The translations under genes were made by a program, and so were the position numbers. Below the pieces are notes generated by a model, which was given only the letters and a program-made list of their open reading frames with translations, was not told the DNA's origin and ran no database searches. This document shows positions 4,718-20,973 of a stretch of 36,785 bases of DNA, one piece after another (within the stretch, counting starts at the first letter, position 1; each line of letters starts with the position of its first letter). The DNA lies in NCBI GenBank assembly GCA_944322805.1, contig CALUQC010000054.1, positions 1-36,785 of the forward strand, written 5' to 3'. This DNA comes from an uncultured Bacteroidales bacterium. Lineage in GTDB: Bacteria > Bacteroidota > Bacteroidia > Bacteroidales > UBA932.

Positions 4718-5635
4718 ATGGAAAAAATCAAAGGATTGATTGATGCGCCGTTTACACCGTTTCTTGCAAACGGCGATGTGAATTTCGAACCGATTCCCGC
4801 ATATGCGGCGATGCTGCAGAAGAACGGTCTGAAGGGTGTTTTCATAAACGGCTCATCCGGTGAGGGCTACATGCTTACCACGGAAGAGCGCATGAGTCTG
4901 GCCGAGAAGTGGATGGATTCGGTTCCTGAAGGTTTCAAGGTCATTGTCCACGTAGGCAGCTGCTGTCTGCGGGAAAGCGTGAAACTTGCATCTCATGCTG
5001 CTGAAATCGGGGCCTGGGGTATAGGTTCAATGGCACCTCCGTTCCCTAAGATAGGAAGGATAGAGGAACTTGTCAAATATTGCGAGGCCATCGCTGCCGC
5101 AGCACCAGGACTTCCTTTCTACTATTATCATATTCCTGCTTTCAACGGGGCTTATCTGCCAATGCTGGACCTTCTGAAGGCTGTTGACGGGAGAATCCCG
5201 AATTTTGCCGGCATCAAGTACACATATGAAAGTTTGTATGAATACAATCAGTGCCGCCTGTACAAGGACGGCAAATACGACATGCTTCACGGACAGGACG
5301 AGACGATTCTTCCAAGTTTGGCCCAGGGTGGCGCTCAGGGAGGCATCGGAGGCACAACGAACTACAACGGACGTGAACTTGTCGGAATTATTGAGGCATG
5401 GGAAAAAGGTGACTTGGAAACTGCACGGGAGAAGCAGAATTTTTCTCAGGCCGTCATCAATGTGATATGCAATTATCGCGGAAATATCGTGGCCGGAAAG
5501 CGTATCATGAAACTGATCGGCCTGGATCTCGGTCAGAACAGGGTGCCTTTCCGCAACATGACCGATGATGAGGAAGCCATGATGAAAAAGCAGTTGGAGG
5601 AGATAAATTTCTTCGAGAGATGCAATAGATTCTGA
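4718..5635 (+). CDS. nanA: N-acetylneuraminate lyase (sialic acid aldolase)
   Basis: A 305-residue cytoplasmic TIM-barrel enzyme of the DHDPS/NAL superfamily that splits Neu5Ac into ManNAc and pyruvate. The sequence shows the substrate carboxylate loop NGSSGE (44-49), the catalytic Tyr137 in YYYHIP (135-140), and the Schiff-base Lys167 in AGIKYT (164-169). These spacings match the family. YYHIP and the sialic-acid context separate it from dihydrodipicolinate synthase. It is the first gene of the operon, starting about 35 nt after the predicted transcription start with no clear Shine-Dalgarno. The next gene follows after 33 nt. The product ManNAc is the substrate of the AGE epimerase two genes downstream. 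Confidence 0.95.
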   Translation: MEKIKGLIDAPFTPFLANGDVNFEPIPAYAAMLQKNGLKGVFINGSSGEGYMLTTEERMSLAEKWMDSVPEGFKVIVHVGSCCLRESVKLASHAAEIGAWGIGSMAPPFPKIGRIEELVKYCEAIAAAAPGLPFYYYHIPAFNGAYLPMLDLLKAVDGRIPNFAGIKYTYESLYEYNQCRLYKDGKYDMLHGQDETILPSLAQGGAQGGIGGTTNYNGRELVGIIEAWEKGDLETAREKQNFSQAVINVICNYRGNIVAGKRIMKLIGLDLGQNRVPFRNMTDDEEAMMKKQLEEINFFERCNRF

Positions 5636-5668: not shown

Positions 5669-7765
5669 ATGAGATTTTCAACAAAGTTTTTCGTGCTGGC
5701 TGCAATACTGCCGGCAATGTTGTGGTCCTGTAAAGAGAAATATGAAGAACAGGACTGGGCTGAACCGAAGGAGGGGCACATCAATGTCAGTTGTACAGCC
5801 TCTGCTTTCGGTGAGACTATGATATGGCCGGATGGCGCTAAAATAGGCCTTTATTGTGAGCAGGCAAATGCCGTAAATGTCCCTGTGAATATTTCCGCTG
5901 CATCTGCAGGCGGGGAGAGCGGGGAATTTTATTCCACTGTTGCATGGGGTGAAGGTACACATACCGTTTATATTTACTATCCGTACAGGGAAGATGCCGT
6001 ATCCGAAGAGTTTTCCATAGAACTTCCGTCGACATGGTCTCAGTCGGGACAGACATACAGCCATCTGATGTCTCGCAATCTGTTCCATACAAGCATTGAA
6101 ACGGAGCCTGCCGAGGGCAGCAATGTGCTGGCTGCAACTCTCGAACCGATATTCAGCCTTGCTGAAATCAAGGTATCTGGAAGCAAGTACGAAGGATATA
6201 ACCTTGACAGGATAAGTATTTCTGCAAAGGATGGCAGTGCACTTTCAGGTAAATACAAATTCAATATTGCGACAGGTGCCCTTACATTAGAGGGGGGTAC
6301 GGTAGAAGATTCCGCGCCGCTTACACTGAATGCCAGCGGCATACAGATAGGGAGCGAGCCGGTAAGTTTATGGTATCTGACAGGTGCTGCGGATGACAAG
6401 TCCGTAACCTGCGATTTTGTCATAACGCTTTCCAACGATAGGGGAAGCATCGAACTGACCGGAGAGGACGATCTGACGATGAAGACCGTACTTTCCGTAG
6501 ATTCTTTCAGTTCTTCTGTCATAGAAGACGATTCCATCGATTTAAGCGACCCTGATGGTGACGGTGCGCGTGAAACAGCGAATTGCTATGTCGTCGGAAA
6601 GGCAGGCCAGACTTATCGCTTCCCTGCTACGATAATGGGTAACGGTTATACTACGCCGGCTGATCCATCTTATGATGCCGGATCTGCTCCTGGCATAACG
6701 CCGTCAGTAATGGCCCCTGCGTCTGCCAAAGTCCTCTGGCAGACAGCTAAGGATCTCATAACCAATGTCAAGCTGCAAAATGACCACGTTTATTTTGACC
6801 TGCCTGGAGACAACGGTACGTTCGTACCCGGCAATGCCGTCATTGCGATTTATAACGGGTCTGGCAGGATTCTTTGGAGCTGGCATATATGGGTAACGGA
6901 TGCAGACCTTGAAGCAAATCTCCAGACATGGAAAGTACATGAGGATCTGGCTGCATACGATGCATATCAGGACCCGCAGCTCATGGACAGAAATCTCGGG
7001 GCCTTGAGTAATCTCGACTGGGCAAGCTCCAATACAAATGCAGCGAAAGGTTTATTCTATCAATGGGGCAGAAAAGATCCGTTTATCGGTCCGGACAATT
7101 CAGGATTTAAATCCAGGGTAGCTATGCCGACGTACGATAGCGAAGGCAATCTATGCGACGTATATCCGCCGGAATCGACAACTCCTGACTTTACGAATGA
7201 TGCACGTTGGACACATGTTGATAAGCAGTTGTCCAGGGCTGATATTGCTGCATATCCTATGGCATTCGTATCCGGTGCAAGCATTGAGGCTGAAACTGCT
7301 TTCTGGATGGAAGAAACCGCTCATGACTTATGGGGGTTGCCTGCTCTTGGTACAGAAGCAAATACTATCGGACATAAGACAATTTATGATCCTTGTCCTC
7401 CGGGATACAGAGTAATGAATCCGTATGCGATGACCGGTGTCATGTCTTCAATGAACGGCGGGAAATATGCGGATCTCGGGAATGGAAACGTCGTCAATCC
7501 AAAAAACTATGGAGAAACGGACCTGCAGGTCAAGTACGACGGGACAAATATTGCGACACTTCCGCCATGTGGACTGATTTACTTTGAAAAAGGGGATAAT
7601 TTTTATCCTTTCGACAGAACCGGTACATATTGTTATATGTGGACAAGTTCGATTTCTGATGAAAAGAGAGGGATGCGCATGCATTATGACATCAATAATT
7701 TCGTGGCTCAGGAAGCTGCCTATGCATCATATGGACATGGTGTCCGCTGCGAAAAAATCAAATAA
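5669..7765 (+). CDS. Fimbrillin-like/FISUMP-domain lipoprotein in the nan operon
   Basis: A 698-residue lipoprotein. The signal peptide ends in the lipobox LWSC with Cys21, followed by a charged KEKYEEQD stretch compatible with surface export in Bacteroidota. The N-terminal half (about 35-290) looks like the fimbrillin/Mfa-like fold (FGETMIWPDGAKIGLY near its start). A middle module begins at ANCYVVGK (Asn305). The C-terminal part (about 435-698) has FISUMP-type features: LMDRNLGA (Met439), YQWGRKDPF, DPCPPGYRV (from 574) and a closing VRCEK. No catalytic motif is visible. It lies between nanA and the epimerase gene, 8 nt before the latter, so it is certainly cotranscribed. I infer a surface glycan-binding or adhesin role, analogous to SusE/SusF-type proteins, but this is unproven. 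Confidence 0.85.
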   Translation: MRFSTKFFVLAAILPAMLWSCKEKYEEQDWAEPKEGHINVSCTASAFGETMIWPDGAKIGLYCEQANAVNVPVNISAASAGGESGEFYSTVAWGEGTHTVYIYYPYREDAVSEEFSIELPSTWSQSGQTYSHLMSRNLFHTSIETEPAEGSNVLAATLEPIFSLAEIKVSGSKYEGYNLDRISISAKDGSALSGKYKFNIATGALTLEGGTVEDSAPLTLNASGIQIGSEPVSLWYLTGAADDKSVTCDFVITLSNDRGSIELTGEDDLTMKTVLSVDSFSSSVIEDDSIDLSDPDGDGARETANCYVVGKAGQTYRFPATIMGNGYTTPADPSYDAGSAPGITPSVMAPASAKVLWQTAKDLITNVKLQNDHVYFDLPGDNGTFVPGNAVIAIYNGSGRILWSWHIWVTDADLEANLQTWKVHEDLAAYDAYQDPQLMDRNLGALSNLDWASSNTNAAKGLFYQWGRKDPFIGPDNSGFKSRVAMPTYDSEGNLCDVYPPESTTPDFTNDARWTHVDKQLSRADIAAYPMAFVSGASIEAETAFWMEETAHDLWGLPALGTEANTIGHKTIYDPCPPGYRVMNPYAMTGVMSSMNGGKYADLGNGNVVNPKNYGETDLQVKYDGTNIATLPPCGLIYFEKGDNFYPFDRTGTYCYMWTSSISDEKRGMRMHYDINNFVAQEAAYASYGHGVRCEKIK

Positions 7766-7773
7766 TCCCAGAC

Positions 7774-8955
7774 ATGTTTGACAAAACTTTTATCCGGTCG
7801 TGCAGGGAAAGGTGCCTGCACGACCTTACCCAAGACATTATCCCGTTCTGGATGAAAAATGGTGTGGACAAGGTCAACGGAGGTATCTACACCTGCCTGG
7901 ACAGGGACGGGACCCTTATGGATACTACGAAGTCTGTCTGGTTTCAGGGGCGTTTTGGCTACGTTGCAAGCGCATTGTACGCAAATCTTGTCAAAGATGC
8001 GGCATTGCTGAAAGCCGCCAAGGATACAATAGATTTCATTGAGAAATATTGTATCGATACGGACGGACACATGTTTTTTGCCGTGACGGCGGAAGGCAGA
8101 CCGCTCAGAAAGAGAAGATACGTTTTTTCCGAATGTTTTGCCATAATGGCAATGGCTGAATATGCTCTTGCCGCATCAGATCCGACATACGCAGACAAGG
8201 CCCTGGACATGTTCCACCGTGTGCGGAAGATGCTTTCGACGCCCGGTTTCCTGGAGCCGAAATATCTTTTCGAGGCAAGGGGGCACTCCATCACAATGAT
8301 GTTGATAAATGTGGCAAATGTCCTGAAACAGGTCTGCAATGATGAAATTCTCGACAGGCAGATAGATGAATCCGTACAGGCTTTGTCAGCATATTTCATG
8401 AACAGCGAATACAAGACGATTCTCGAGACTGTCGGTCCTGATGGAGAATTTATCGACACTTGCGAAGGACGGACCATTAACCCCGGGCATTGCATGGAAA
8501 CGGGCTGGTTTATTCTTGATGTCGCCAACGCCAGAGGGAAAGACCCGGAACTGACGAAAATGGGACTCCAAATCATAGACTGGGCCTGGGACTGGGGATG
8601 GGATGAGGAGTACGGCGGCATGATAAATTTCCGCGACTGTAAAAATTTCCCTCCGCAGGACTATTCTCAGGATATGAAATTCTGGTGGCCTCAGTGTGAA
8701 ACTATCCTGGCCTCTCTTTATGCATACAATGCTTCCGGAGACGAAAAATACATGGATATGCACAGAAAAGCGTTTGAATATGCTTTCGGAAAATTCCCGG
8801 ATCCGGAATACGGGGAATGGTACGGTTATCTTCACAGGGACGGTACCGTAGCGCAGCCTGCAAAGGGCAATCTTTTCAAGGGGCCGTTCCATGTACCGCG
8901 GATGATGATGAAGGCTGTACAACAATATGATACTTTACTGACAGAAAAACAATAA
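7774..8955 (+). CDS. nanE: N-acylglucosamine 2-epimerase (AGE family), ManNAc to GlcNAc
   Basis: A 393-residue (alpha/alpha)6-barrel enzyme of the AGE/renin-binding-protein family, the usual length. In Bacteroidota sialic acid loci this family interconverts unphosphorylated ManNAc and GlcNAc, replacing the NanK/NanE phosphate route of enterobacteria. Visible family residues include WFQGRFGY (56-63, Arg60), GHCMETGW with His239, the aromatic WWPQCE (304-309) and the second catalytic His373 in GPFHVPRMM. No signal peptide, so cytoplasmic. It starts 8 nt after the lipoprotein gene and ends 4 nt before the sialidase gene. The symbol follows Bacteroides fragilis usage; the enterobacterial NanE is an unrelated ManNAc-6-P epimerase. 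Confidence 0.92.
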   Translation: MFDKTFIRSCRERCLHDLTQDIIPFWMKNGVDKVNGGIYTCLDRDGTLMDTTKSVWFQGRFGYVASALYANLVKDAALLKAAKDTIDFIEKYCIDTDGHMFFAVTAEGRPLRKRRYVFSECFAIMAMAEYALAASDPTYADKALDMFHRVRKMLSTPGFLEPKYLFEARGHSITMMLINVANVLKQVCNDEILDRQIDESVQALSAYFMNSEYKTILETVGPDGEFIDTCEGRTINPGHCMETGWFILDVANARGKDPELTKMGLQIIDWAWDWGWDEEYGGMINFRDCKNFPPQDYSQDMKFWWPQCETILASLYAYNASGDEKYMDMHRKAFEYAFGKFPDPEYGEWYGYLHRDGTVAQPAKGNLFKGPFHVPRMMMKAVQQYDTLLTEKQ

Positions 8956-8959
8956 GGCA

Positions 8960-10186
8960 ATGATAATCAAGAATATTTCCATAGTGCTGGCCGGACTTAT
9001 GACACTCAGTACGATTGTTTCCGGCTGTGAAAAAGAGATACAGCGGCCCGAAGTTACCGAGCCGTTGATGCCGGATCTCGGCCCGGAGGGAACCGAGGGA
9101 ACAATCGGGTCCGCGGAAGTGACAAGGACTACGGTTTTTTCCGCGGCTGCTAACAACGAAGTTTTCCGCATACCGTCGGTTATTACCGCCAAAGACGGGT
9201 CGATACTTGTTTTTGCGGAAGACAGACATGAATCATGGCGCGATAAGAGCTATACGGACGTGGTTGTAAAGCGAAGCACTGACAACGGCAAGACATGGTC
9301 GGCCGCAGTCAGCATCACTGGAAGTCTGAATGCCGGTGATTTCGCATTCATGGATCCTACGCCTGTGCTGGATGAAAATACGGGTACGATATATCTGTTC
9401 TGCAACAGATGGAATGAACTGAATACGGACTATACCAACAACAGGGCATTCATGTCCAAGTCAACCGACCATGGGGCGACTTGGTCCAATCCTGTGGATG
9501 TGACCGATCAGATTGTAAATGCCGGCATGTATTGCGGCGGTTTCGGCCCCGGCCATGGCATAATGATAAAGGAGGGCCGGTATGCTGGCAGACTCGTACT
9601 GATAACACGGCAAAACAGCGCAACCGGCTCGGGAAACTGTTATGCAATATATTCCGATGACGGCGGCAGCAGCTGGAGCATAGGCGGCGCCGTATCGTCC
9701 GGAGAGGCGCAGATAGCCGAAGCCGGAGAGGACAGGCTGTACATTAATATCAGAAGAGGTGCAGCCAGATATTCATCATTCTCATTGGACGGAGGTGCAA
9801 GCTGGTCTGCTGCTCAACAGGATGTTTCGCTGCCGAGTGTTGACGGAGGATGCCAGGCAAGTGTCCTCGGAACGGGAAGCAATATGGTATTCTATTGCGG
9901 TCCTGAAAGCGGGGCGGCATCGGACGGCCATGACAACAGATACGGTCTTAAACTGTTCAGAAGCGCTACGAGCGGCTCAGGCTGGACAAGAAGCCAGGTG
10001 CTGTATGAAATGGCATCAGGTTATTCGGACATGACGCTGCTTCAGGACGGGCGAATGGCTATCATATTCGAGGCAGGAGATGAAAAAGGCTTTATCAAGA
10101 CCAGTAACAGGGTGCCTGGATGGCTCCGTCTCGACCTGATGGTCCTGCCTGCGGAAATTACGGACTATGACTATTGGTTTGAATAA
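8960..10186 (+). CDS. Lipoprotein exo-alpha-sialidase (GH33)
   Basis: A 408-residue sialidase that would release terminal sialic acid from glycoconjugates. The signal peptide ends in lipobox VSGC (Cys23), followed by acidic residues, so it is an outer-membrane lipoprotein and may be surface exposed. A six-bladed BNR propeller follows: FRIP (69-72, first catalytic Arg70), and Asp boxes STDNGKTW (106-113), STDHGATW (168-175), SDDGGSSW (232-239) and SLDGGASW (275-282). The probable nucleophile is Tyr355 in SGYSDMTLL, with Glu254 in the GEAQIAEAG stretch as its likely partner. It carries no extra domain, unlike the second sialidase of the operon. It sits 4 nt after the epimerase gene and 17 nt before the SusC-like gene. 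Confidence 0.93.
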   Translation: MIIKNISIVLAGLMTLSTIVSGCEKEIQRPEVTEPLMPDLGPEGTEGTIGSAEVTRTTVFSAAANNEVFRIPSVITAKDGSILVFAEDRHESWRDKSYTDVVVKRSTDNGKTWSAAVSITGSLNAGDFAFMDPTPVLDENTGTIYLFCNRWNELNTDYTNNRAFMSKSTDHGATWSNPVDVTDQIVNAGMYCGGFGPGHGIMIKEGRYAGRLVLITRQNSATGSGNCYAIYSDDGGSSWSIGGAVSSGEAQIAEAGEDRLYINIRRGAARYSSFSLDGGASWSAAQQDVSLPSVDGGCQASVLGTGSNMVFYCGPESGAASDGHDNRYGLKLFRSATSGSGWTRSQVLYEMASGYSDMTLLQDGRMAIIFEAGDEKGFIKTSNRVPGWLRLDLMVLPAEITDYDYWFE

Positions 10187-10203: not shown

Positions 10204-13200
10204 ATGAAACAACTAATAACTATGCTGACCCTCATCTGCCTGCTTTGCATACAGGTGAGTGCACAAGGACCGGCTACGGTGTCCGGAAAGGTATCCGATT
10301 CGTACGGGGAACCGATGATAGGAGCTACGGTCATCGAGAAAGGCACTACCAACGGAGTGACTACCGATGCTGACGGAAACTACAGGATCACTCTCGAAAA
10401 CAACAAATCCACGATTGTTTTCAGTTCATTGAGCTACATTACCCAGGAAATCCCTGTCAACGGCCGCTCTGTCATTGATGTGACCATGGAAGATGATGCG
10501 TTGAGTCTGAATGAAGTCGTGGTGACAGGATACGGACAGACCGTGACAAAGGACAAACTGACTGCCGCAATTTCCAAGGTATCGGATGATGAAATCAGCA
10601 GAGGCTCGCACGGCAACGTATTGAAGACACTTCAAGGATCAGTCACCGGTGTCAGGATTTCAACTACTTCCGGCCAGCCTGGCTCGCAGCCTTCCATCGT
10701 CATCCGTGGTGGTGCGGCACTGGATGGAAGCGGTACTCCGCTTTACATCGTGGACGGTATGCAAAAACCCGATCTCGCCGCACTGAATCCCAACGACATA
10801 GCTTCCATCGAAATTTTGAAGGATGCGGCTGCTACTGCTCTTTACGGCGCGAAAGCCAATGCCGGTGTCGTTATGGTTACTACCAAACAGGGCCGGGAAG
10901 GCAAGACGGAAATCAATTTCAAGGCCAATGTCGGTCTGAATTATTTGAGAAATACCAGCGAATTCCTGGAGGCTGATGACTATCTGTATTATCTCAGGCT
11001 GGCAGCATACAGGTCAGGCAACACTTCCGCCTTGTCGGCAGCCGGACCTTACGGTACCGGAAACGTCTATACTGCAGATGGAAATGAATCGGCAGAGGGT
11101 GTGTACAGTACGATGTTCCTGACAGATGAGAACAGATTCCTTTTGGACCAGGGATACAAGTCAATGACCGACCCAATTACCGGCAAAACCATTATTTACA
11201 ATGAGTTTTCGTCCAGAGATGCTTCTGTCAGGGATGTTGCCATTACTCAGGATTACAATATCTCCGCTTCCGGAGGCAACGAGAAGGCCAAATATTACGT
11301 AGGTCTCGGATATTACAACGAAAAAGGTTTTCCTGTGATTTCAAACTATGAAAGGTTGTCATTTACGGGAAATTCGCAGTACAGGATTACGAAGTGGCTC
11401 AACAGCCGCACTTCAGTGACATTCTCCAAGGCAGATGATTCTTCCGTATCAGATTACATAAGCGGAGGTGAAAAGAATTTCTTCGGAATCATGTATTCGG
11501 CTCCTCCTACCATGCGCCAGTACAACCTTAACGGCGATCCGATCATTTGTACCACGAACTGGGAGAACGGAAACTGGGAAGCCGCCTCGGACTTTTTCTA
11601 CCGCCGTCATACGAACTACCGCATGACGTTCACTCAAGGGCTGGATTTCAATATCACAGATCATCTGACATTCAAGGTCAACGGAATGTGGTATCTCAAC
11701 ATGACCGAAACGGAAAAGGCCAACAAGAGGTATATTTCCAGACCGGGAATCTGGAATGACGACAGGGGAGTGACGGACAATTATGCGAGAAGGCTTGACC
11801 AGACTTACAACGCCATGCTCAATTACGAGAATTCATGGGGAAATCACAATTTCAACGTTGTTGCCGGTTTCGAATACTGGGATTCATTTACTTACGGGCT
11901 GTCCGCATATGGTCAGGGTGCTGATTCCGATGACTTCATCAGCCTCGGATATTTCGACAAGACCGAAGAAGCCAACATCACCAAAATAAATATGAATTCC
12001 ACGCACGTGCGCCAGAGAAGCATGTCTTTCTTCGGAAATGCAATGTATGACTACAAAGGCAAATATCTGTTCTCTTTTTCGGCACGATATGACGGATACT
12101 CCAAACTGGTAAATAACAAATGGGGATTCTTCCCTGGTGTCAGCGCCGCATGGAACATCCATAAGGAGCCGTTTATGGCAGGAAGTTCGAACTGGCTTAC
12201 CGGACTTAAGCTGAGAGCAGGTTTCGGCCAGAACGGAAACGTGAACATTGTCGCCGGTGCATATGACCTGCAGGGCGATTACGGCAAGACCGGAAACTAT
12301 GGAGGAGAATACGGTATATTGATAGACGATCTTCCGTATCCTGACTTGAGATGGGAGAAGACAACATCGACCGACGTAGCCGTTGAAGCCGTATTCTGGA
12401 ACAGGCTCAGCGCGTCGATAGGTTTCTATAACAAACTTACGTCGGACCTGCTTGCATCCGTGCCTTTCCCGTCTTCGAGCGGAGTGGGCAACCAGTTCAC
12501 CAACAACGGCAGTGTACGCAGCCGGGGTATCGAGTTTGAAATCGGTGCTACCTTATTCAAAAACAAGGACTGGAATATCCGTATTGGCGGTAACGCCACA
12601 TATATGAGGTCCAAGATCATTTCACTGCCTTATAATGGCAATGAAAACAACCGGCAGGGCGGTTCCCAGGTATATAATCCGGATACTGGCGATCTGATGT
12701 GGGTAGGAGGATATCAGGAAGGTCAGGAATACGGAGTCGCATACGGATTCAAGATGATGGATATTGTCAGATCCAATGAAGACCTGCAGAAATATGCCTG
12801 GTACAAGGATGTCACTCCTTCCAAAGGCACTATCTATGGTCCGGCTATCTGGGAGACACTGACTGCGGAGGAACAGAAGAACGGACAGCTCCTTCAGCCC
12901 GGCGATGCGATATTCTATGATGTAAACGGCGATCAGGTCGTTGACCAGTACGATCTCGTATATATGGGAAATACCGTGCCGAGGTGGATCGGAGGCCTGA
13001 ATTTTTCCGTCGACTGGAAAGGGCTTTCACTTTATGCCAAATTCGACTATGCCGCCGACTATGTGGCCGTCAATTCGAGAAAACGCTGGTATATGGGACT
13101 GTTCCAGGGAACATTCAATACAATCAAGGAAAGCAAGGATACCTGGTCTGTAGACAATCCGGATGCTACATATCCTATACTTATGTATGCCGACAACCAG

Positions 13201-13461
13201 AACAGGAACAACTACAGGCTCAGCGATATTTTCTACGAAAACAGCAGCTATCTCTGCGCCAGGGACATAACCCTGTCATACAGCCTTCCTCAGAAATGGT
13301 GCAAGGCAATAAAAATGCAGGACCTGACGATATCCGTGACCGGACAGAATCTGTTCTATATCACACCGTCCACTTTGTACAGCCCGGAATACGGTGCTGA
13401 CGACGAGGGAGGTTACGGAATCCCAAGGACCATACTTTTCGGAATTAAAGCCACATTCTAA
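10204..13461 (+). CDS. nanO: SusC/RagA-type TonB-dependent receptor (NanO-type)
   Basis: A 1085-residue outer-membrane transporter. The signal peptide ends near SAQ (residue 21). A carboxypeptidase-regulatory-like domain follows (about 24-105, starting ATVSGKVSDSYGEPMIGATV). The TonB-box-like VVVTGYG comes next, then the plug with the SusC hallmark LKDAAATALYGAKANAGVV. A long beta-barrel ends in a terminal Phe. No STN or anti-sigma extension is present. In sialic acid loci of Bacteroides and Tannerella this pair (NanO/NanU) imports free Neu5Ac across the outer membrane using TonB energy. The cargo here is assigned from context: it is flanked by sialidases and precedes its SusD partner by 13 nt. 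The symbol is by analogy only. Confidence 0.93.
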   Translation: MKQLITMLTLICLLCIQVSAQGPATVSGKVSDSYGEPMIGATVIEKGTTNGVTTDADGNYRITLENNKSTIVFSSLSYITQEIPVNGRSVIDVTMEDDALSLNEVVVTGYGQTVTKDKLTAAISKVSDDEISRGSHGNVLKTLQGSVTGVRISTTSGQPGSQPSIVIRGGAALDGSGTPLYIVDGMQKPDLAALNPNDIASIEILKDAAATALYGAKANAGVVMVTTKQGREGKTEINFKANVGLNYLRNTSEFLEADDYLYYLRLAAYRSGNTSALSAAGPYGTGNVYTADGNESAEGVYSTMFLTDENRFLLDQGYKSMTDPITGKTIIYNEFSSRDASVRDVAITQDYNISASGGNEKAKYYVGLGYYNEKGFPVISNYERLSFTGNSQYRITKWLNSRTSVTFSKADDSSVSDYISGGEKNFFGIMYSAPPTMRQYNLNGDPIICTTNWENGNWEAASDFFYRRHTNYRMTFTQGLDFNITDHLTFKVNGMWYLNMTETEKANKRYISRPGIWNDDRGVTDNYARRLDQTYNAMLNYENSWGNHNFNVVAGFEYWDSFTYGLSAYGQGADSDDFISLGYFDKTEEANITKINMNSTHVRQRSMSFFGNAMYDYKGKYLFSFSARYDGYSKLVNNKWGFFPGVSAAWNIHKEPFMAGSSNWLTGLKLRAGFGQNGNVNIVAGAYDLQGDYGKTGNYGGEYGILIDDLPYPDLRWEKTTSTDVAVEAVFWNRLSASIGFYNKLTSDLLASVPFPSSSGVGNQFTNNGSVRSRGIEFEIGATLFKNKDWNIRIGGNATYMRSKIISLPYNGNENNRQGGSQVYNPDTGDLMWVGGYQEGQEYGVAYGFKMMDIVRSNEDLQKYAWYKDVTPSKGTIYGPAIWETLTAEEQKNGQLLQPGDAIFYDVNGDQVVDQYDLVYMGNTVPRWIGGLNFSVDWKGLSLYAKFDYAADYVAVNSRKRWYMGLFQGTFNTIKESKDTWSVDNPDATYPILMYADNQNRNNYRLSDIFYENSSYLCARDITLSYSLPQKWCKAIKMQDLTISVTGQNLFYITPSTLYSPEYGADDEGGYGIPRTILFGIKATF

Positions 13462-13474
13462 AAAGAGGACAGAA

Positions 13475-14995
13475 ATGAAAAAATTTTTATATGCAATCAG
13501 TGCAGCCGCAATGCTGCTGTCATCCTGCAGTGCACTTGATCTCGGACCTATAGACCAGTATGGTATAAACAACTACTGGAATACGGAAGAACAGTGCGAG
13601 CGCTTCATAGTAGGGCTGCACTACCGTCTCAGATCCAGGATGGAAACCATAATGATTATGGGAGAACTGCGGGGTGGTACATTGAATACATCCTCCATCA
13701 CGTCTTCGGGGGAAGGTGCTTCAAATATAGCCGCTGTATCAAACAACCTTTCCGTAGCGAATCCCGTTCTGACCAACTGGGGAAATTTCTATATGGACAT
13801 TTACCAGATAAACCATGCCATAGACAAGATTGAGAATGAATGCGAATTTCTGGATGACGTTACCAGAAAGACATATCTGGGACAGCTTTACGGCTTGCGT
13901 GCATTCTATTATTTCCATCTTTTAAGGACATGGGGCGGAGTTCCTCTCTGCGACAAGCCGGACGTACTTATAACCGATGACCTTCAGGTGCTGGACAAGC
14001 CTCGTGCCACGGAACAGGCTACCTGGGAGTTTGTCCGCGATGCAGTGGACAAGTCCTGCGAATACTATAAGGATCTCGGTTTCGAAAATTTCAAGGGAAT
14101 GAACTGTTATTGGAACAAGGCCGCGTCTCTTTGCCTTAAAGCGGAAGTCTACCTTTGGGGAGCAAAGGTAAAGCCTATCGGAGGGACCGCCGTTCTCGCA
14201 CCTGAACCTGAGAAATATCTGGAAGATGCCAAGAGCGCGCTTGAGGAAGTAGAGCCGCACTACAGCTACAACAAGGATTTTGCAGACGCATTTTCAGTTG
14301 AAAACAAGGACAGCAATCCTGAAACAATATTTGCTGCCAGATATCTCTTGGGAGAAAGTACAAACTATTTCGTGAATTTCACGTACAACATAGCCATTTT
14401 TACGAAATTCTGCGATGCTGACGGAAATTCTATCGGTAACGTTCTTAATATCGGAAGCGGATTCCAGAGGTACGAGTACAGCCAGGACTTCTACAATTCA
14501 TTTGCAGCAGGTGACAAACGTCGTGATGCAAGTCTGTATCAATATTATCAGAAGGACAACGACAATACTGTACAGCCTGCAGGACGTGCCCTGTGCAAGT
14601 TCCTTGGAGACCTGGACAACGGCAAGATCCAGTACACAAACGATGTCCCTGTTTACAGATACATGGATGTAGCGCTGATGCTGGCGGAAATCAACAATGA
14701 GCTTGAAAACTCCGGTGAAGTAAGCAAATGGATAGGCGTCGTCAGAAGCAGGGCATTCGATACTCCGCCTGCATTCACATACACGGACAAGGAAAGTGCG
14801 GAAGAGGTTATTCTGGCTGAACGAAAGGCTGAATTCGTTGCGGAAAGCAAGGTGTGGTACGATGTCAGACGAATGCTCGGCGGAAAATATGCGCTGGATT
14901 TGGTGGGCGATAATGAACTTAAACTCGTTTGGCCGATTGATTCTGGTGTACTTTCGAAAGACGACAATGTCAAGCAGAACGAAGGCTATCTGTAA
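13475..14995 (+). CDS. nanU: SusD/RagB-type lipoprotein (NanU-type), sialic acid binding
   Basis: A 506-residue surface lipoprotein that caps the SusC-type barrel and captures the ligand. The start at MKKFLYAIS gives a standard signal peptide with lipobox LSSC (Cys18). Longer in-frame starts upstream would overlap the receptor gene and precede the signal, so I reject them. The SusD signature is clear: LYGLRAFYYFHLLRTWGGVPL-like helix pair (about residues 131-150), TPR-like helices and the C-terminal block VILAERKAEFVAESKVWYD (about residues 448-466). It follows the SusC gene by 13 nt and ends 10 nt before the sialidase-mutarotase gene. Sialic acid as ligand is inferred from context and from the described Tannerella/Bacteroides NanU proteins. 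Confidence 0.93.
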   Translation: MKKFLYAISAAAMLLSSCSALDLGPIDQYGINNYWNTEEQCERFIVGLHYRLRSRMETIMIMGELRGGTLNTSSITSSGEGASNIAAVSNNLSVANPVLTNWGNFYMDIYQINHAIDKIENECEFLDDVTRKTYLGQLYGLRAFYYFHLLRTWGGVPLCDKPDVLITDDLQVLDKPRATEQATWEFVRDAVDKSCEYYKDLGFENFKGMNCYWNKAASLCLKAEVYLWGAKVKPIGGTAVLAPEPEKYLEDAKSALEEVEPHYSYNKDFADAFSVENKDSNPETIFAARYLLGESTNYFVNFTYNIAIFTKFCDADGNSIGNVLNIGSGFQRYEYSQDFYNSFAAGDKRRDASLYQYYQKDNDNTVQPAGRALCKFLGDLDNGKIQYTNDVPVYRYMDVALMLAEINNELENSGEVSKWIGVVRSRAFDTPPAFTYTDKESAEEVILAERKAEFVAESKVWYDVRRMLGGKYALDLVGDNELKLVWPIDSGVLSKDDNVKQNEGYL

Positions 14996-15005
14996 ACCGT
15001 TCCGT

Positions 15006-17651
15006 ATGAAAGCGATATTCGTTTCCGTGCTTTTCGCATTCCTGTCCGTGTCGCAAGCAGTGTGTGCGGATGTGGATATTCCGGAAGTACATTATCCCGT
15101 AGTCCCTGTCATTGCAGGCAGGGACTGTAATGTGGCGGCCGAAATCTGTATCGTATCAGACGGGGAGAGGAATGGAAAGCTCGACTACATAGATGTAAGA
15201 CTTGACGGTATTCCGACAGATGCCGTCAGGTCTTTGGAACTGATGTATTCCGGGACAATGTCGGTTGTCCGTTCCCGGACAACATCTTATGTGCTTGTAG
15301 ACAATGCCCGTAAATCGGGCGGAGGCCAGAGTATATGGTGTGATTCCGATTTCGTCGAAAAAGTCGGCAGTGCACCGGCCGCAGACAAGGCAAGAATCCA
15401 TTGCGAGAAAGCGCTCGTCTCCGGTAGAAATTATTTTTACGTCAGCATATCCATTGATCCTGAAAAGGTTATGGATATTTCCGCTCCTTTCGTTGTGGAA
15501 GTGACGGGAATTTCCGTAAATGGAAATGAAAGAAAATATTCAGTCAGCGGCAATCCACGGCACAGGCTCGGGATTTCTGTCAGGCAGGCAGGAGATGACG
15601 GAGTGGTTGCTTACAGAATTCCGGGGCTTGTCACGGCGTTGGACGGGTCACTCATTGCCGTATATGATATCAGGTACGATTCGAGTCTCGATTTGCAGAA
15701 CAATATAGATGTTGGAGTGAGCCGCAGCAGTGATGGCGGCTTATCATGGCAGTATCTCGGTCCGGTATTGGATATGGGGACTTACGGCGGGTTGCCACAG
15801 GCACAGAACGGAGTGGGAGATCCTTCCGTATTGGTCGACGAGATGACGGGAGAAATATTCATCGCCGGACTGTGGACGCACGGAATAGGTGTGGACAGGG
15901 CCTGGACAGGAGTCGGGCAGGGACTGACACCTGAAGAAACAGGTCAGATTCTCTTGACAAGCAGCAGGGATAACGGTCTTACATGGTCTGATCCAGTCAA
16001 TATCACTCCGCAGGTCAAGAGACCTGAATGGTATCTGACCTTGCAGGGCCCGGGAAGAGGAATTTCCATGAATGACGGTACGCTGGTTTTCCCCATGCAG
16101 CATATTGGGACGGACAGGGTGCCATGTGCCGGAATCATGTACAGTCAGGATCATGGAAAAACATGGAAAACACATAATTATGCCAAGACAAATACGACCG
16201 AGGCCCAGGTAGTTGAAGTTTCTCCAGGGGAGTTGATGCTCAACATGAGAGATAACAGAAAAACCGGACGGGCAGTAGCAGTCACCCCGGATATGGGAGA
16301 GACCTGGACGGAACACCGTTCTTCCGGAGCACTCAGGGAGCCTGTCTGCATGGCGAGCATCATTAAAGTTCCGGCAGACAAAAACCGGTACGGAAAGGAT
16401 ATTCTGCTGTTTTCAAATCCTGATACGACCAAAGGCCGCAATCATATGAGCATAAAGGCGAGTCTGGACGGCGGCAATACCTGGCTTCCTGAAAACAGCC
16501 TCCTGCTCGACGAGGAAGAAAACTGGGGATATTCCTGCATGTCGATGATAGATGAGGAAACCGTGGGGATATTGTACGAATGCAGTACGGTACAGCTTGT
16601 TTTCCAGGCAGTCAAGCTCTCGGACATCATTTCATCGCCCGAACCTTTTGCTGCGGAAACTTTGCCTTCGGCTTCGGCAGAAGACACCAGCGGCTACGGC
16701 ATGGGTGTATCGGCAGCATTCTGCGGGATATTGGGCAGCGTCCCCGTCATGGCCGGCGGAGCGAATTTCCCGGATGTTCCTGCATCGGAGAACGGCAGGA
16801 AGTCTTTTTATGACGATATTTTCGTCTTGAGCGGAAACAGATGGCTGCATGCCGGAACGCTCCCGGAAACTTTGGCATACGGCGGATCTGCCGTATGCGG
16901 AAACAGACTTTACGTGATTGGAGGAAACGGCGGGCATGGAACAACAGGCTCCGTTTACAGCCTGTCGGTAAAGGATGGAAAGGCAGATGTCAGGCAGGAA
17001 AACAGCCTTCCTTTTCCGATAGAGCAGGCCGGTTATGCTTCGGAAAACAACAAGATTTATGTTGTAGGCGGCATTTCCGGCACCTCCGCTTCCCGGAAAG
17101 TCTTGGCCGGCACAGTCGGCAGATCCCGCGGCATACAATGGGAGGAGATAGCGGTACTTCCGGAGAATTTAGTACAGCCGGTGGCTTACGCGTACGGCGG
17201 AAGTCTCTATGTATGGGGAGGATACGACCCGGAATCAGGGCTGTGCTCCGGTAAGGGATATCGTCTTGACTTGCGCAGGAAAGAATGGTCATCCGTATCT
17301 GCGGTTCCTGACGGAGGTACTTTTACGGGAGCGGTTTCCATTGCTCTTCCATGCGGTATGGCTGCTGTCGTCGGCGGTGTCTGTCCGGAGATCTTCGAGA
17401 GGGGATTATCCGGCAAATACAAGGATTATCTGACATTGCCTCCGGCAAATTACCGCTTCAATGATCGATTGTGGATTTATTCTCCGCGTACCGATACTTG
17501 GGATTGTGCCGGTTGTTCAGGGCGTCTTGCCCTTGCCGGTGCTGCTGCAGCCGCAGACAACGGTTACATATATGTTTTCGGTGGAGAGATCAAGCCTGGA
17601 GTCCGCACTCCTGAAAATCTCAGAATTGAAATCAGAAATATTGTAAAATGA
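15006..17651 (+). CDS. Sialidase (GH33) fused to kelch-type sialic acid mutarotase
   Basis: An 881-residue protein when started at MKAIFVSVLF, which gives a type I signal peptide (cleaved near Ala21). The frame is open further upstream but those Mets lie inside the SusD gene. Domain order: BNR-associated N-terminal domain (about 25-180); GH33 catalytic propeller (about 190-545) with YRIP (203-206), Asp boxes SSDGGLSW (241-248), SRDNGLTW (320-327), SQDHGKTW (380-387) and SLDGGNTW (486-493), catalytic candidates Glu399, Arg415, Arg478 and Tyr509; then a kelch propeller (about 565-881) beginning VMAGGANFPDVP, as in NanM/YjhT-related, cyclically permuted mutarotases. It should release alpha-Neu5Ac and speed its conversion to the beta anomer, probably in the periplasm. 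A 4-nt ATGA overlap couples it to the transporter gene. Confidence 0.92.
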   Translation: MKAIFVSVLFAFLSVSQAVCADVDIPEVHYPVVPVIAGRDCNVAAEICIVSDGERNGKLDYIDVRLDGIPTDAVRSLELMYSGTMSVVRSRTTSYVLVDNARKSGGGQSIWCDSDFVEKVGSAPAADKARIHCEKALVSGRNYFYVSISIDPEKVMDISAPFVVEVTGISVNGNERKYSVSGNPRHRLGISVRQAGDDGVVAYRIPGLVTALDGSLIAVYDIRYDSSLDLQNNIDVGVSRSSDGGLSWQYLGPVLDMGTYGGLPQAQNGVGDPSVLVDEMTGEIFIAGLWTHGIGVDRAWTGVGQGLTPEETGQILLTSSRDNGLTWSDPVNITPQVKRPEWYLTLQGPGRGISMNDGTLVFPMQHIGTDRVPCAGIMYSQDHGKTWKTHNYAKTNTTEAQVVEVSPGELMLNMRDNRKTGRAVAVTPDMGETWTEHRSSGALREPVCMASIIKVPADKNRYGKDILLFSNPDTTKGRNHMSIKASLDGGNTWLPENSLLLDEEENWGYSCMSMIDEETVGILYECSTVQLVFQAVKLSDIISSPEPFAAETLPSASAEDTSGYGMGVSAAFCGILGSVPVMAGGANFPDVPASENGRKSFYDDIFVLSGNRWLHAGTLPETLAYGGSAVCGNRLYVIGGNGGHGTTGSVYSLSVKDGKADVRQENSLPFPIEQAGYASENNKIYVVGGISGTSASRKVLAGTVGRSRGIQWEEIAVLPENLVQPVAYAYGGSLYVWGGYDPESGLCSGKGYRLDLRRKEWSSVSAVPDGGTFTGAVSIALPCGMAAVVGGVCPEIFERGLSGKYKDYLTLPPANYRFNDRLWIYSPRTDTWDCAGCSGRLALAGAAAAADNGYIYVFGGEIKPGVRTPENLRIEIRNIVK

Positions 17652-18895
17652 AAATCAATGATAAAATTATCCGGGCCTATCCTTGGATTGTAGTAGCACT
17701 TCTCTGGGTCGTAGCCTTGCTGAATTACATGGACAGGCAGATGCTTTCCACCATGAGGGAGGCGATGCAGATAGATATCGTGGAATTGGAATCTGCCGCA
17801 AATTTCGGGAAACTGATGGCCGTATTTCTCTGGATTTACGGTATTATAAGTCCTTTTGCCGGAGCCGTAGCTGACAGAGTAAGCAGGAAATGGCTCATCA
17901 TAGCGTCTCTCGGGGTCTGGTCTGCCGTAACATTGCTGATGGGGTATTGCACGTCTTATCACCAGATATTGTGGCTCAGGGCTCTGATGGGTGTCAGCGA
18001 GGCTTTGTATATTCCAGCAGGACTGTCCCTCATAGCAGACTACCATGAAGGGAAATCGAGAAGTTTCGCAATAGGCATCCATATGACCGGACTTTATCTC
18101 GGCCAGGCTGCGGGTGGATTTGGAGCTACCATTGCCGCGACATTTTCATGGCAGCAGACTTTCCACTGGTTCGGAATCATCGGTGTAATTTACGCCCTGG
18201 TACTTATAGTACTTCTTCATGAAAAGAGGGACGAATCCACTGCACAGGTAAGGTCAGCCATGCCGCAGACTGCAAAAATCCCTGTCCTGAAAGGATTCGG
18301 AATGATATTTTCCAATGTCGCTTTTTGGGCGATACTCTTTTTCTTCGCTTCCACCTCACTTCCGGGATGGGCTACGAAAAACTGGCTGCCGACCTTGTTT
18401 TCAGAGGGTTTGGGTATTCCGATGGCCCAGGCAGGTCCGATATCTACCATTACCATAGCGGCATCTTCGTTCATCGGTATCCTGATAGGCGGACCTCTTT
18501 CAGACAAATGGGTGCGCAGGAATCTCAAAGGCCGTATCTATACGAGTGCCATAGGCCTTGCGCTTATGATTCCGTCTTTAGTCTTGCTCGGACTCGGATC
18601 AGGCCTTGCAGCCGCAGTGACGGCAGGTCTGCTTTTCGGAATAGGATATGGTATGTTCGACACGAACAATATGCCTATCCTCTGTCAGTTCGTCCCTGCC
18701 AAGCTGCGTGCGACTGCTTATGGTGTAATGAACATGACGGGGGTCATCGCCGGTGCCGTATGCACACAGGTCCTCGGAAGGTGGGCTGATGCCGGCAATC
18801 TGGGGCTGGCTTTTGCTGTCCTCGGATGCATTACGGCAGTAGCACTTATAGTACAGCTGACGATATTACGTCCGGTGACAGATGACATGAAATGA
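17648..18895 (+). CDS. nanT: MFS sialic acid transporter (NanT-type)
   Basis: A 415-residue inner-membrane permease of the major facilitator superfamily, with about 12 hydrophobic helices. The first helix ends in NYMDRQMLST and the loop between helices 2 and 3 carries GAVADRVSRKW, the usual MFS A-motif. The style matches the anion:cation symporter branch, and Bacteroides NanT belongs to MFS. It would bring Neu5Ac from periplasm to cytoplasm with protons. It overlaps the preceding fusion gene by 4 nt (ATGA) and the next esterase gene by 4 nt (ATGA), so the three are translationally coupled. Substrate is assigned from context, not from residues I can name. Confidence 0.9.
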   Translation: MKINDKIIRAYPWIVVALLWVVALLNYMDRQMLSTMREAMQIDIVELESAANFGKLMAVFLWIYGIISPFAGAVADRVSRKWLIIASLGVWSAVTLLMGYCTSYHQILWLRALMGVSEALYIPAGLSLIADYHEGKSRSFAIGIHMTGLYLGQAAGGFGATIAATFSWQQTFHWFGIIGVIYALVLIVLLHEKRDESTAQVRSAMPQTAKIPVLKGFGMIFSNVAFWAILFFFASTSLPGWATKNWLPTLFSEGLGIPMAQAGPISTITIAASSFIGILIGGPLSDKWVRRNLKGRIYTSAIGLALMIPSLVLLGLGSGLAAAVTAGLLFGIGYGMFDTNNMPILCQFVPAKLRATAYGVMNMTGVIAGAVCTQVLGRWADAGNLGLAFAVLGCITAVALIVQLTILRPVTDDMK

Positions 18896-20973
18896 TTATG
18901 AAGCGCATATTTCTTTTGCTTTTGACGGCATTGGCAGCCATAACCGCCAATGCCGGGCCTGATACGGTCAAAGTCGCCTGTATAGGTGACAGCATCACAT
19001 ACGGTGTCGGAACGGATGACAGGGAGACGGAGTCATATCCGTCCAGGCTGCAGCAGCTTCTCGGCAGCGGGTACTTAGTGGAGAATTTCGGAAAGTCCGG
19101 TGCTACACTGCTCAGAAATGGGCACAGACCGTATGTGGAGCAGCCTGAATTCGCCAGAGCTATGGCTTTTGTTCCTGATATAGCTCTCATTCATCTCGGA
19201 GTCAATGATACCGATCCTCGAGACTGGCCGAATTACGGTGACGAATTCGTCAGGGACTATCTTGCAATCATAGATTCTCTCCGGTCTGTAAATGCCGGCA
19301 TGCGTATCCTGATTGCCGAAATTACACCAATAACTTCGGATCATCGCCGTTTCTGTTCCGGAACGTCCCAATGGCAGAAGAAAATACGCGAAGCGATAAA
19401 GGTAGTCGCAGATGTCGGCAACGTGCAGCTTGTCGATTTTTTTACACCATTGTTTCCACATCCTGACATGCTCCCGGATTCTGTTCACCCGGACAGCAGG
19501 GGAGCAATGATTCTGGCACGTACGGCATATTCGGCCATTACAGGAGACTTCGGAGGTTTGAGTATGCCGGCCTTGTATTCTGACGGGATGGTTTTGCAAA
19601 GGGACTGTCCCATAAGGATTTCCGGGACAGCAAATGCGGGGGTCGATGTTTCTGTCAGTTTCGCAGGGCAAAAAAGAAGAGCCGTGACCGGTTCTGACGG
19701 CAGATGGTCTGTCGTTTTCGACCCGATGCATGCTGCTACCGGTATGTCACTGAAAATTAAGGCGGCAGGGGAGTCGTTGATATTCAAGGATGTGGCTGTC
19801 GGGGATGTCTGGCTTTGTTCCGGACAGTCGAACATGGAATTTCCTGTCAGTCGCATGAACGGAAAAGACAGGGTTCTCGAAGATGCTGATGACGGTGATT
19901 TGAGACTTTTCGACATGAAGGGCAAGTGGAGAACAGACAACACCATATGGGACAATGATGCTATTTCTTCAGTCCAAGTTCTTGATTATTATGAAAAAAC
20001 GCAATGGAAAAAGAGCGAGAGGGGAGTGGCCGACGATTTTTCAGCTGTAGGATACTGTTTCGGGCGCATGCTCAGGGACAGCCTTGATGTACCCGTAGGT
20101 TTGATCTGCAATGCGGTAGGCGGCTCTACGACCGAATCCTGGATCGACAGAGAGACACTTGGTTCATATTTCCCGCTGATCTTGAAGGACTGGCTGAACA
20201 ATGATTTCGTACAGGAATGGGCCAGGAAAAGGGCGGCCAAGAATATAGACAGTGCAAATACCGGTATTCACCGTCATCCGTATGAGCCTTGTTATCTATT
20301 TGAAGCAGGGATTCTTCCTTTGGAAGGCTATCAGATCAAAGGTGTCATATGGTATCAGGGAGAGTCAAATGCGCACAATGCTGATGCTCACGAGACGCTT
20401 TTCCGTCTTCTTGTCAAAAGTTGGAGGACGTATTGGAACAATCCTGAATTGCCATTTTATTTTGTCCAGCTGTCGGGTATTGATCGTCCGTCATGGCCTG
20501 CTTTCCGGGACAGCCAGAGACGCCTTGCTGACTCCATACCGTTTACCGCTTTTGCCGTATCAAGCGATCTCGGGGATTCCCTGGATGTGCATCCGAAGGA
20601 TAAACGTCCTGTGGGTGAACGACTTGGACGGTTGGCTCTGCATTGTGAATACGGATATGTATCCGTGGTCCCATCCGGACCTGCCGTGAAGTCGGCAGAG
20701 TTTCAAAACGGAAAAATTATCGTTCATTTCGACTGGTCTGACGGTCTGACTTCATCTGATGGCGGACCGGTAAGGACTTTCGAGGTCGCCGAGTATCCTG
20801 GTTTGTTTTATCCTGCAAAGGCTGCCGTTAATGGCGATTCCGTTGTACTGACTTGCGATTATGTCGCAAGACCGCGTTATGTCCGCTACGCATGGCAACC
20901 TTTTACACGCGCAAACCTGATAAATTCATCTGGTTTACCTGCATCAACTTTTATGATTGAAATTGACAGATGA
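18892..20973 (+). CDS. nanS: Bimodular sialate O-acetylesterase (SGNH + SASA), NanS-type
   Basis: A 693-residue secreted esterase. The signal peptide ends near ANAGPD (residue 21); an alternative start at the Met of MKRIF (18898) is equally possible. The N-terminal SGNH/GDSL hydrolase domain (about 25-218) shows GDSITYG with Ser34, GVNDTDP (103-109) and the Asp196/His199 pair in DSVHPDS. The second domain (about 222-690) is the sialic-acid-specific acetylesterase fold with SGQSNM (310-315, nucleophile Ser313), VIWYQGESN (485-493) and an Asp/His element near DVHPKDK (565-571). Such enzymes remove O-acetyl groups that block sialidases; a two-domain NanS is described from Tannerella forsythia. 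It is the last gene of the operon, coupled to nanT by an ATGA overlap. Confidence 0.92.
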   Translation: MIMKRIFLLLLTALAAITANAGPDTVKVACIGDSITYGVGTDDRETESYPSRLQQLLGSGYLVENFGKSGATLLRNGHRPYVEQPEFARAMAFVPDIALIHLGVNDTDPRDWPNYGDEFVRDYLAIIDSLRSVNAGMRILIAEITPITSDHRRFCSGTSQWQKKIREAIKVVADVGNVQLVDFFTPLFPHPDMLPDSVHPDSRGAMILARTAYSAITGDFGGLSMPALYSDGMVLQRDCPIRISGTANAGVDVSVSFAGQKRRAVTGSDGRWSVVFDPMHAATGMSLKIKAAGESLIFKDVAVGDVWLCSGQSNMEFPVSRMNGKDRVLEDADDGDLRLFDMKGKWRTDNTIWDNDAISSVQVLDYYEKTQWKKSERGVADDFSAVGYCFGRMLRDSLDVPVGLICNAVGGSTTESWIDRETLGSYFPLILKDWLNNDFVQEWARKRAAKNIDSANTGIHRHPYEPCYLFEAGILPLEGYQIKGVIWYQGESNAHNADAHETLFRLLVKSWRTYWNNPELPFYFVQLSGIDRPSWPAFRDSQRRLADSIPFTAFAVSSDLGDSLDVHPKDKRPVGERLGRLALHCEYGYVSVVPSGPAVKSAEFQNGKIIVHFDWSDGLTSSDGGPVRTFEVAEYPGLFYPAKAAVNGDSVVLTCDYVARPRYVRYAWQPFTRANLINSSGLPASTFMIEIDR

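Follow-up and report, generated by a model that had tools for sequence, protein, structure and literature searches.

A 36,785-nucleotide stretch of DNA from an uncultured Bacteroidales bacterium (contig CALUQC010000054.1 of assembly GCA_944322805.1; hereafter the window) carries a gene for an 881-residue protein in which a sialidase of glycoside hydrolase family 33 (GH33) is joined to a circularly permuted kelch propeller of the NanM type. We propose, with a probability of roughly three in four, that this protein is a single soluble, exported (periplasmic) bifunctional enzyme that couples the release of alpha-N-acetylneuraminic acid (alpha-Neu5Ac) to its mutarotation before uptake by a NanT-type transporter. 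The domain content, the conservation of residues, the predicted folds, the operon and the recurrence of the fusion are established directly. The fusion unites two known enzyme families inside a known operon, and no description of this covalent order was found in the accessible parts of the open-access literature (including PMC3969230 and PMC6593285), with mention in subscription papers being possible.

The gene runs in a single frame of 881 codons plus stop. The mechanically called open reading frame (ORF) opens earlier, at a GTG (position 14796) within the SusD gene, and the ATG at 15006 is preferred because the signal peptide starts there. The signal peptide (MKAIFVSVLFAFLSVSQAVCA/D) is without a convincing lipobox and is probably cleaved at AVCA/D. 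Pfam profiles scored over their curated cut-offs for BNR_assoc_N (residues 28-174), BNR_3 (205-484), BNR_2 (233-517) and NANM (PF24996), and AlphaFold2 gave a confident model of the full-length protein, with a predicted local distance difference test score (pLDDT) of 89.7 and a predicted template modelling score (pTM) of 0.86. An earlier note on this DNA had described an exported 881-residue protein with a BNR-associated N-terminal domain; the reading frame, the Pfam matches and the signal peptide all agree with that description, and the location of the protein is presumably the periplasm. Between two Alistipes fusions, the dN/dS values (nonsynonymous over synonymous divergence) are 0.020/0.156 for the GH33 half and 0.037/0.233 for the mutarotase half, from which we infer purifying selection on both halves.

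The sialidase half has the six residues expected of a GH33 active site, namely R204, D229, E399, R415, R478 and Y509, which we take to be the arginine triad, the acid/base aspartate, and the tyrosine nucleophile with its glutamate on the basis of Micromonospora sialidase numbering. That numbering is consistent with the alignment of 1eur to the second sialidase of the window, and none of the six residues varies among the 15 GH33 domains that were aligned, six of which are fused. The propeller has five Asp-box-like motifs. Nine distinct sialidase chains in the PDB, several of them named as Bacteroidota enzymes, matched the sequence at E <= 1.1e-153 (best match 4fj6, E 6.5e-161), and Foldseek placed Bacteroidota sialidases on the predicted fold at TM scores of 0.92-0.93 by target length (4q6k, 0.93). 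Thus, the full GH33 propeller with all key residues that had been claimed from the sequence is borne out by the residues, by Pfam and by the fold.

Evidence for the identity of the second propeller comes from profiles and from its active site. The domain scored 117.2 bits against a cut-off of 45 for Pfam NANM, which places it in that family, and the permutation was seen directly in that profile positions 236-347 match upstream of positions 4-224. The NCBIfam model TIGR03548, named 'cyclically-permuted mutarotase', spans residues 566-870 and covers profile positions 2-321 of 323 (E 2.3e-53). NanM itself (2uvk) is the best PDB sequence match (E 1.9e-15), again as two stretches in swapped order (33.0 and 27.7 bits). 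E861 and R867 align opposite chain positions 209 and 215 of 2uvk, which presumably are the catalytic pair of NanM (Glu209/Arg215), so that the presumed active-site residues whose lack would have spoken against a mutarotase are present. Glu861 is kept in 100 of 100 and Arg867 in 99 of 100 distinct homologous domains, a set that includes the window's row and was drawn from loci found by similarity alone, without the motif (142 mutarotase ORFs minus 30 that were too short and 12 repeats). A larger set gave 129/129 for Glu and 128/129 for Arg, counts that are partly by construction because the motif GGE[IL]KPG[VI]R was one of two search patterns in the scan of named genomes that supplied part of the set. 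The mutarotase half alone is predicted by AlphaFold2 as a confident propeller (pLDDT 95.7, pTM 0.93), and no other NANM-type domain was found in the assembly of the window, which is 86.9% complete. The kinship with NanM/YjhT mutarotases seen in the earlier note is therefore well supported by the NANM score, the permuted order and the retained Glu/Arg pair, and we infer from this sequence evidence that the kelch half has mutarotase activity.

Several observations weigh against the proposed enzyme. The TIGR03548 score of 181.4 bits is 62 bits below the curated cut-off of 243.2; the expectation that the protein would match GH33 plus a TIGR03548-type profile was borne out for GH33, the permuted order and a near-full alignment. 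None of the seven relatives scanned, some free and some fused, reached the cut-off either, and because the window domain misses it we call the C-terminal half 'TIGR03548-like' and not a formal member. The top 50 Foldseek matches of this half are generic kelch domains, with 2uvk not among them. Sequential structure alignment is penalised by permutation, and a permuted fold would favour such a ranking; because generic kelch domains rank first, the fold alone does not identify a mutarotase. Most relatives occur without a sialidase-mutarotase fusion. As for the importance of mutarotation, loss of nanM in the E. coli studies, as seen in part, cost at most 20% of the growth rate (PMC3658417) and carried no competitive cost in another test (PMC8141875). 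Lastly, 89 of 92 free mutarotases passed a hydrophobicity test for a signal-like N-terminus, 30 of them with a lipobox pattern (five of the 97 free forms had no usable prefix); this shows little, because 155 of 335 internal control stretches also pass, as does the linker of the related fusion in genome G233.

One possibility, raised by the missed cut-off and by nearest folds that are binding-type kelch domains, is that the second propeller only looks like NanM and serves as a non-catalytic or carbohydrate-binding module. We regard this as unlikely, since E861 and R867 are kept in 100 and 99 of 100 free and fused domains, the mutarotase half appears to be under purifying selection, it is the sole NanM-type domain found in the assembly, and most typed loci of its free relatives have a gene for a lyase, an epimerase or a transporter alongside.

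The surroundings of the gene fit a role between release and import. The fusion lies in a ten-gene nan locus directly upstream of the gene for a major facilitator superfamily (MFS) transporter, which overlaps the fusion's stop, in line with the NanT uptake of the earlier note. The locus holds the complete set of NanL, NanE (AGE), NanOU-type TonB/SusD, MFS NanT, NanS and GH33 that we take to define the Bacteroidota nan operon.

Published work, in the portions accessible to us, indicates why the anomer may matter. Neu5Ac leaves a retaining sialidase as the alpha anomer and then mutarotates slowly until about 90% is beta (PMC10017367). Without an enzyme, anomerisation is slow at pH 6 and speeds up about fivefold with each pH unit (PMC8141875). 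The beta anomer is reported to be the form that E. coli NanT imports (PMC8141875), and it is also the form bound by SiaT, a sialic acid symporter from another transporter family (PMC5931594). On Neu5Ac, Parabacteroides merdae upregulates genes with nearby locus tags for a permuted mutarotase, a sialidase, an AGE epimerase and an MFS transporter (PMC12893687). In the proposed mechanism, the GH33 half would act with retention on periplasmic sialylated oligosaccharides or glycopeptides and set alpha-Neu5Ac free, and the permuted NanM-like half, via E861/R867, would open the ring and speed equilibration to beta-Neu5Ac, the form that the MFS transporter of the adjoining downstream gene would import. 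By having a mutarotase of its own, a periplasmic sialidase would thus supply that transporter with the anomer it favours, provided that its preference is the same. Both activities, the periplasmic location, the anomer preference of this transporter and an advantage at mildly acidic pH, at which uncatalysed mutarotation is slow, are presumed in this scheme.

It is conceivable that the mutarotase half acts chiefly on another keto-acid sugar, such as N-glycolylneuraminic acid (Neu5Gc) or 2-keto-3-deoxynononic acid (Kdn), or on another hexose. Four of five selected Bacteroides sialidases preferred Neu5Gc, according to the accessible part of that study (PMC10017367). The lyase, AGE epimerase, O-acetylesterase and NanOU-like genes of the locus fit a general sialate pathway and do not separate Neu5Ac from Neu5Gc. 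On balance, a main substrate other than Neu5Ac seems quite improbable, more so than a non-catalytic kelch half.

What the covalent link contributes can be viewed in two ways. Fusion would provide one mutarotase per sialidase molecule, with both exported behind a single signal peptide at a fixed 1:1 dosage. The earlier note proposed instead that the first active site passes its product straight to the second. In such a channelling scheme, the two sites would face each other and alpha-Neu5Ac would move from sialidase to mutarotase before it can escape into the periplasm. The pTM of the full-length model is compatible with a fixed arrangement of the domains, and the linker is short, at about 20 residues. 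That linker, however, is the least conserved part of the protein when the window is compared with the fusion in genome G092 (53% identity over 19-20 residues, against 87% for GH33 and 74% for the mutarotase) and with that in G233 (20% over 19-20 residues, against 73% and 45%), although it is 90% identical in a close Alistipes pair. Moreover, in other fusions it is a transporter that is attached to the mutarotase, and at the opposite end. Free NanM, admittedly with a different partner, speeds the reaction of the aldolase NanA in vitro while largely substoichiometric, which its authors took as evidence against complex formation (PMC8141875, seen in part) and which shows that NanM is sufficient in its free form. 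Direct hand-over thus lacks support, and we consider such channelling a poor prospect, slightly less probable than a non-catalytic kelch half. Co-export and fixed dosage, which explain the fusion just as well, are favoured.

The fusion is rare but real. When 400 sampled genomes of the genus were searched with the mutarotase half and matching loci were typed by domain, 75 genomes matched; fragments in G124 and G172 did not type and G284 has two kinds, leaving 73 genomes and 74 entries, some of them incomplete ORFs (e.g., G170 at a contig end). A free mutarotase was present in 42 genomes, a fusion to a sodium/solute symporter (mutarotase-SSF) in 27, a sialidase-mutarotase in four (the window, G092, G233 and G110; 4/400 sampled) and a NanS-mutarotase in one. 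Samples of the order and of the phylum were searched at a threshold of 1e-10. In the order, 37 of 393 genomes matched, the window's own included, and none of the 29 loci typed in the main pass was a sialidase-mutarotase; among the 36 other matches, G042, G655 and G425 were typed separately, and G491, G485, G772, G726 and a second place in G519 were left untyped. In the phylum, 23 of 395 matched, again including the window's own, with no sialidase-mutarotase among the 22 further loci typed. A scan of named genomes, in which the best 80 of 142 relatives were kept, gave six sialidase-mutarotases, six NanS-mutarotases and 68 others. The six are L132 (Candidatus Cryptobacteroides avicola, counted as G092), L134 (counted as G233), L141 (Candidatus Alistipes intestinigallinarum), L162 (Alistipes sp. 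An66), and L174 and L187 (uncultured Alistipes). Thus, the fusion occurs in at least eight genomes: the window, G092, G233, G110 and four Alistipes (L141, L162, L174 and L187). Within these samples and the best 80 of 142, it was seen only in the window's genus, which is presumably Cryptobacteroides, and in Alistipes, a first answer to how widespread such fusions are in Bacteroidota. Viral contigs scanned with the whole 881-residue protein yielded no relatives.

A SusD gene upstream and a NanT gene after the fusion, as in the window, are also present in G092, G233, L141, L162 and L187, five of the other seven loci with the fusion; in G233 an Mfa_like_1 gene intervenes. On the contigs of L174 and G110, the full SusD/NanT set is not seen. 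This recurrence bears on whether the fusion is an artefact of assembly or gene fusion, such as a stop codon lost in one metagenome-assembled genome. The window's assembly is fragmented (174 contigs), yet seven further genomes have GH33 followed by the mutarotase in one frame, six of them with the N-domain (L174 being cut by the contig end) and G110 without it, and an artefact is scarcely credible. Other candidates did not survive inspection. Apparent giant fusions in L149, L168 and L208 (open frames of 795, 1150 and 572 residues) have an extra part that reads like an out-of-frame neighbour and in which no other query domain matched, and proteins in G425 (1734 residues) and G981 (793 residues) gave partial matches only and were judged to be other kelch proteins. 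At L013 / L026 (G030:C11), there are two neighbouring GH33 ORFs, one of which matches a single part of the GH33 query twice, with overlap, as would fit an internal repeat or insertion; two stop codons fall within a tblastn match there.

Phylogenies of the two halves tell different stories. In the GH33 tree, the eight fused sialidases fall in one clade of 11 (Shimodaira-Hasegawa-like approximate likelihood ratio test support 92, not starred), with three unfused members inside. In the mutarotase tree, built from the 129 of 147 distinct domains that span most of the query, the fused domains do not form a clade, and the An66 domain groups with a free Alistipes mutarotase (support 99). Constraining the seven usable fused mutarotase domains to a single clade cost 112.4 log-likelihood units and was rejected by the approximately unbiased test (p 2.3e-5). 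The p value is 0.033 without An66 and 0.067 without An66 and G110, subsets that were chosen after the tree was seen, and the long G110 branch and an unsettled bootstrap weaken the rejection. Because the trees reject one clade of fused mutarotase domains, the sequences point to either more than one fusion event or one fusion with later replacement of the mutarotase domain in the An66 line. A single vertical event would not readily account for the distribution.

The permuted mutarotase has other partners as well, and this wider set of fusions is more telling than a single odd protein. In the mutarotase-SSF proteins (833-922 residues among five scanned with Pfam), the mutarotase is fused N-terminally to the symporter; these include loci L064-L071 and others, e.g., L064:5203-7809 (+), and a NanL-like lyase gene adjoins in several. 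NanS-mutarotase fusions are 1024-1050 residues where complete, and two were confirmed by Pfam; at L062:2382-5525 (+), L175, L184, L197 and L206, the next recognised gene encodes an MFS transporter. L102:3144-7775 (+) encodes a 1543-residue chain of GH20 hexosaminidase, NanS esterase and permuted mutarotase. A further NanS-mutarotase, L204:1-1515, is on a contig labelled Collinsella sp. (Actinomycetota); its domain and one from a genome of the window's order are sisters (support 99), and the contig is probably mis-binned. It is possible that an anomer gate lies between release and import and that Bacteroidota have repeatedly hard-wired a mutarotase to the flux-limiting neighbour, be it a sialidase, an esterase, a GH20-esterase or a sodium symporter, with the window protein as the release-side version and its kelch half an active Neu5Ac mutarotase. 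We offer this broader idea tentatively, at a little under even odds.

The genes of the locus run in the order divergent ROK regulator, NanL, Mfa_like_1, NanE, second GH33, TonB receptor, SusD, fusion, MFS transporter and NanS, and from NanL onward they are separated by gaps of 4 to 33 bases plus two 4-base overlaps (Table 1).

Table 1. Positions of the nan locus genes and of the parts of the fusion within the window.
Feature	Position	Strand	Basis or remark
ROK-family regulator, divergent	3162..4385	-	
NanL/NanA-type lyase (DHDPS family)	4718..5635	+	
Mfa_like_1 lipoprotein-like protein	5669..7765	+	found again in three related nan loci
AGE-family epimerase (NanE)	7774..8955	+	profile search
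Second GH33 sialidase, lipoprotein-like N-terminus (SGCEKE)	8960..10186	+	profile search
TonB-dependent receptor (NanO position)	10204..13461	+	profile search
SusD-like (NanU position)	13475..14995	+	profile search
Sialidase-mutarotase fusion gene, 881 aa	15006..17651	+	ORF read and Pfam/NCBIfam profiles
Sec signal peptide, residues 1-21	15006..15068	+	sequence read directly; model helix 2-24
BNR_assoc_N domain, residues 28-174	15087..15527	+	Pfam PF14873, 41.3 bits vs cut-off 25
GH33 sialidase propeller, residues 181-543	15546..16634	+	Pfam, PDB sequence matches, Foldseek, key-residue alignment
Linker, residues 544-565	16635..16700	+	without signal-like hydrophobic stretch
Circularly permuted NanM-type kelch propeller, residues 566-876	16701..17633	+	Pfam NANM, TIGR03548, 2uvk match, AlphaFold2
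E861 and R867 within GGEIKPGVR	17586..17606	+	counterparts of the presumed catalytic NanM Glu209/Arg215
MFS transporter (NanT-like)	17648..18895	+	start overlaps fusion stop by 4 bases
NanS-like sialate O-acetylesterase (GDSL + SASA)	18892..20973	+	4-base overlap with NanT

The second GH33 sialidase is only distantly related to the fused one, and its SGCEKE sequence suggests a division of labour between surface and periplasm. Because it has a lipoprotein-like N-terminus and the fusion a plain signal peptide, the second sialidase may act at the surface and the fusion in the periplasm. The Mfa_like_1 protein (SCKEKYEE), possibly a surface sialoglycan-binding protein, is related to proteins encoded in three other nan loci, those of G092, G298 and, with two copies, G233. 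Elsewhere in the genome, one gene of the YhcH (DUF386) anomerase family (G000:C129:27987-28424, +) is likely the cytoplasmic counterpart of the mutarotase.

The importance of sialic acid mutarotases in vivo is unsettled, given the little or no defect of E. coli nanM mutants in the accessible parts of PMC3658417 and PMC8141875. Repeated fusion of a mutarotase either with an earlier step (sialidase, esterase) or with a later one (symporter) provides independent genomic evidence for selection on mutarotation in gut Bacteroidota. A biochemical characterisation of the permuted mutarotase family was not found in the open-access literature, as far as it was accessible, and the covalent sialidase partner ties that family to Neu5Ac. 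The fusions also make it possible to measure directly, on single proteins, how release, anomer switch and uptake are coupled.

Comparison with known systems places the window protein among several partial likenesses. The Bacteroidota GH33 sialidases BTSA of B. thetaiotaomicron (4bbw), BDI_2946 (4fj6) and T. forsythia NanH (7qy9) have an N-domain plus GH33, as does the fusion, but the solved chains stop after the propeller, whereas the fusion adds a second one. E. coli NanM/YjhT (2uvk), a Neu5Ac mutarotase, has in common with the fusion a kelch propeller, the Glu and Arg of GE-x-KPG-x-R, a (presumed) periplasmic location and a place in sialate catabolism, whereas the window domain is circularly permuted, remote in sequence and attached to a sialidase. 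The TIGR03548 family has the same permutation; the window domain differs in lying below its curated cut-off and in being fused. As described in the accessible part of PMC10017367, SiaBb1 of B. bifidum, an O-acetylesterase/sialidase fusion, likewise joins a sialidase to another sialate-processing enzyme, although its partner is an esterase acting before cleavage and that of the window protein a mutarotase acting, we propose, after it. Finally, the mutarotase-SSF fusions of Bacteroidota also join a permuted mutarotase to a neighbouring step of sialate uptake, but with the mutarotase N-terminal and an importer as its partner, where the window protein has the releasing enzyme.

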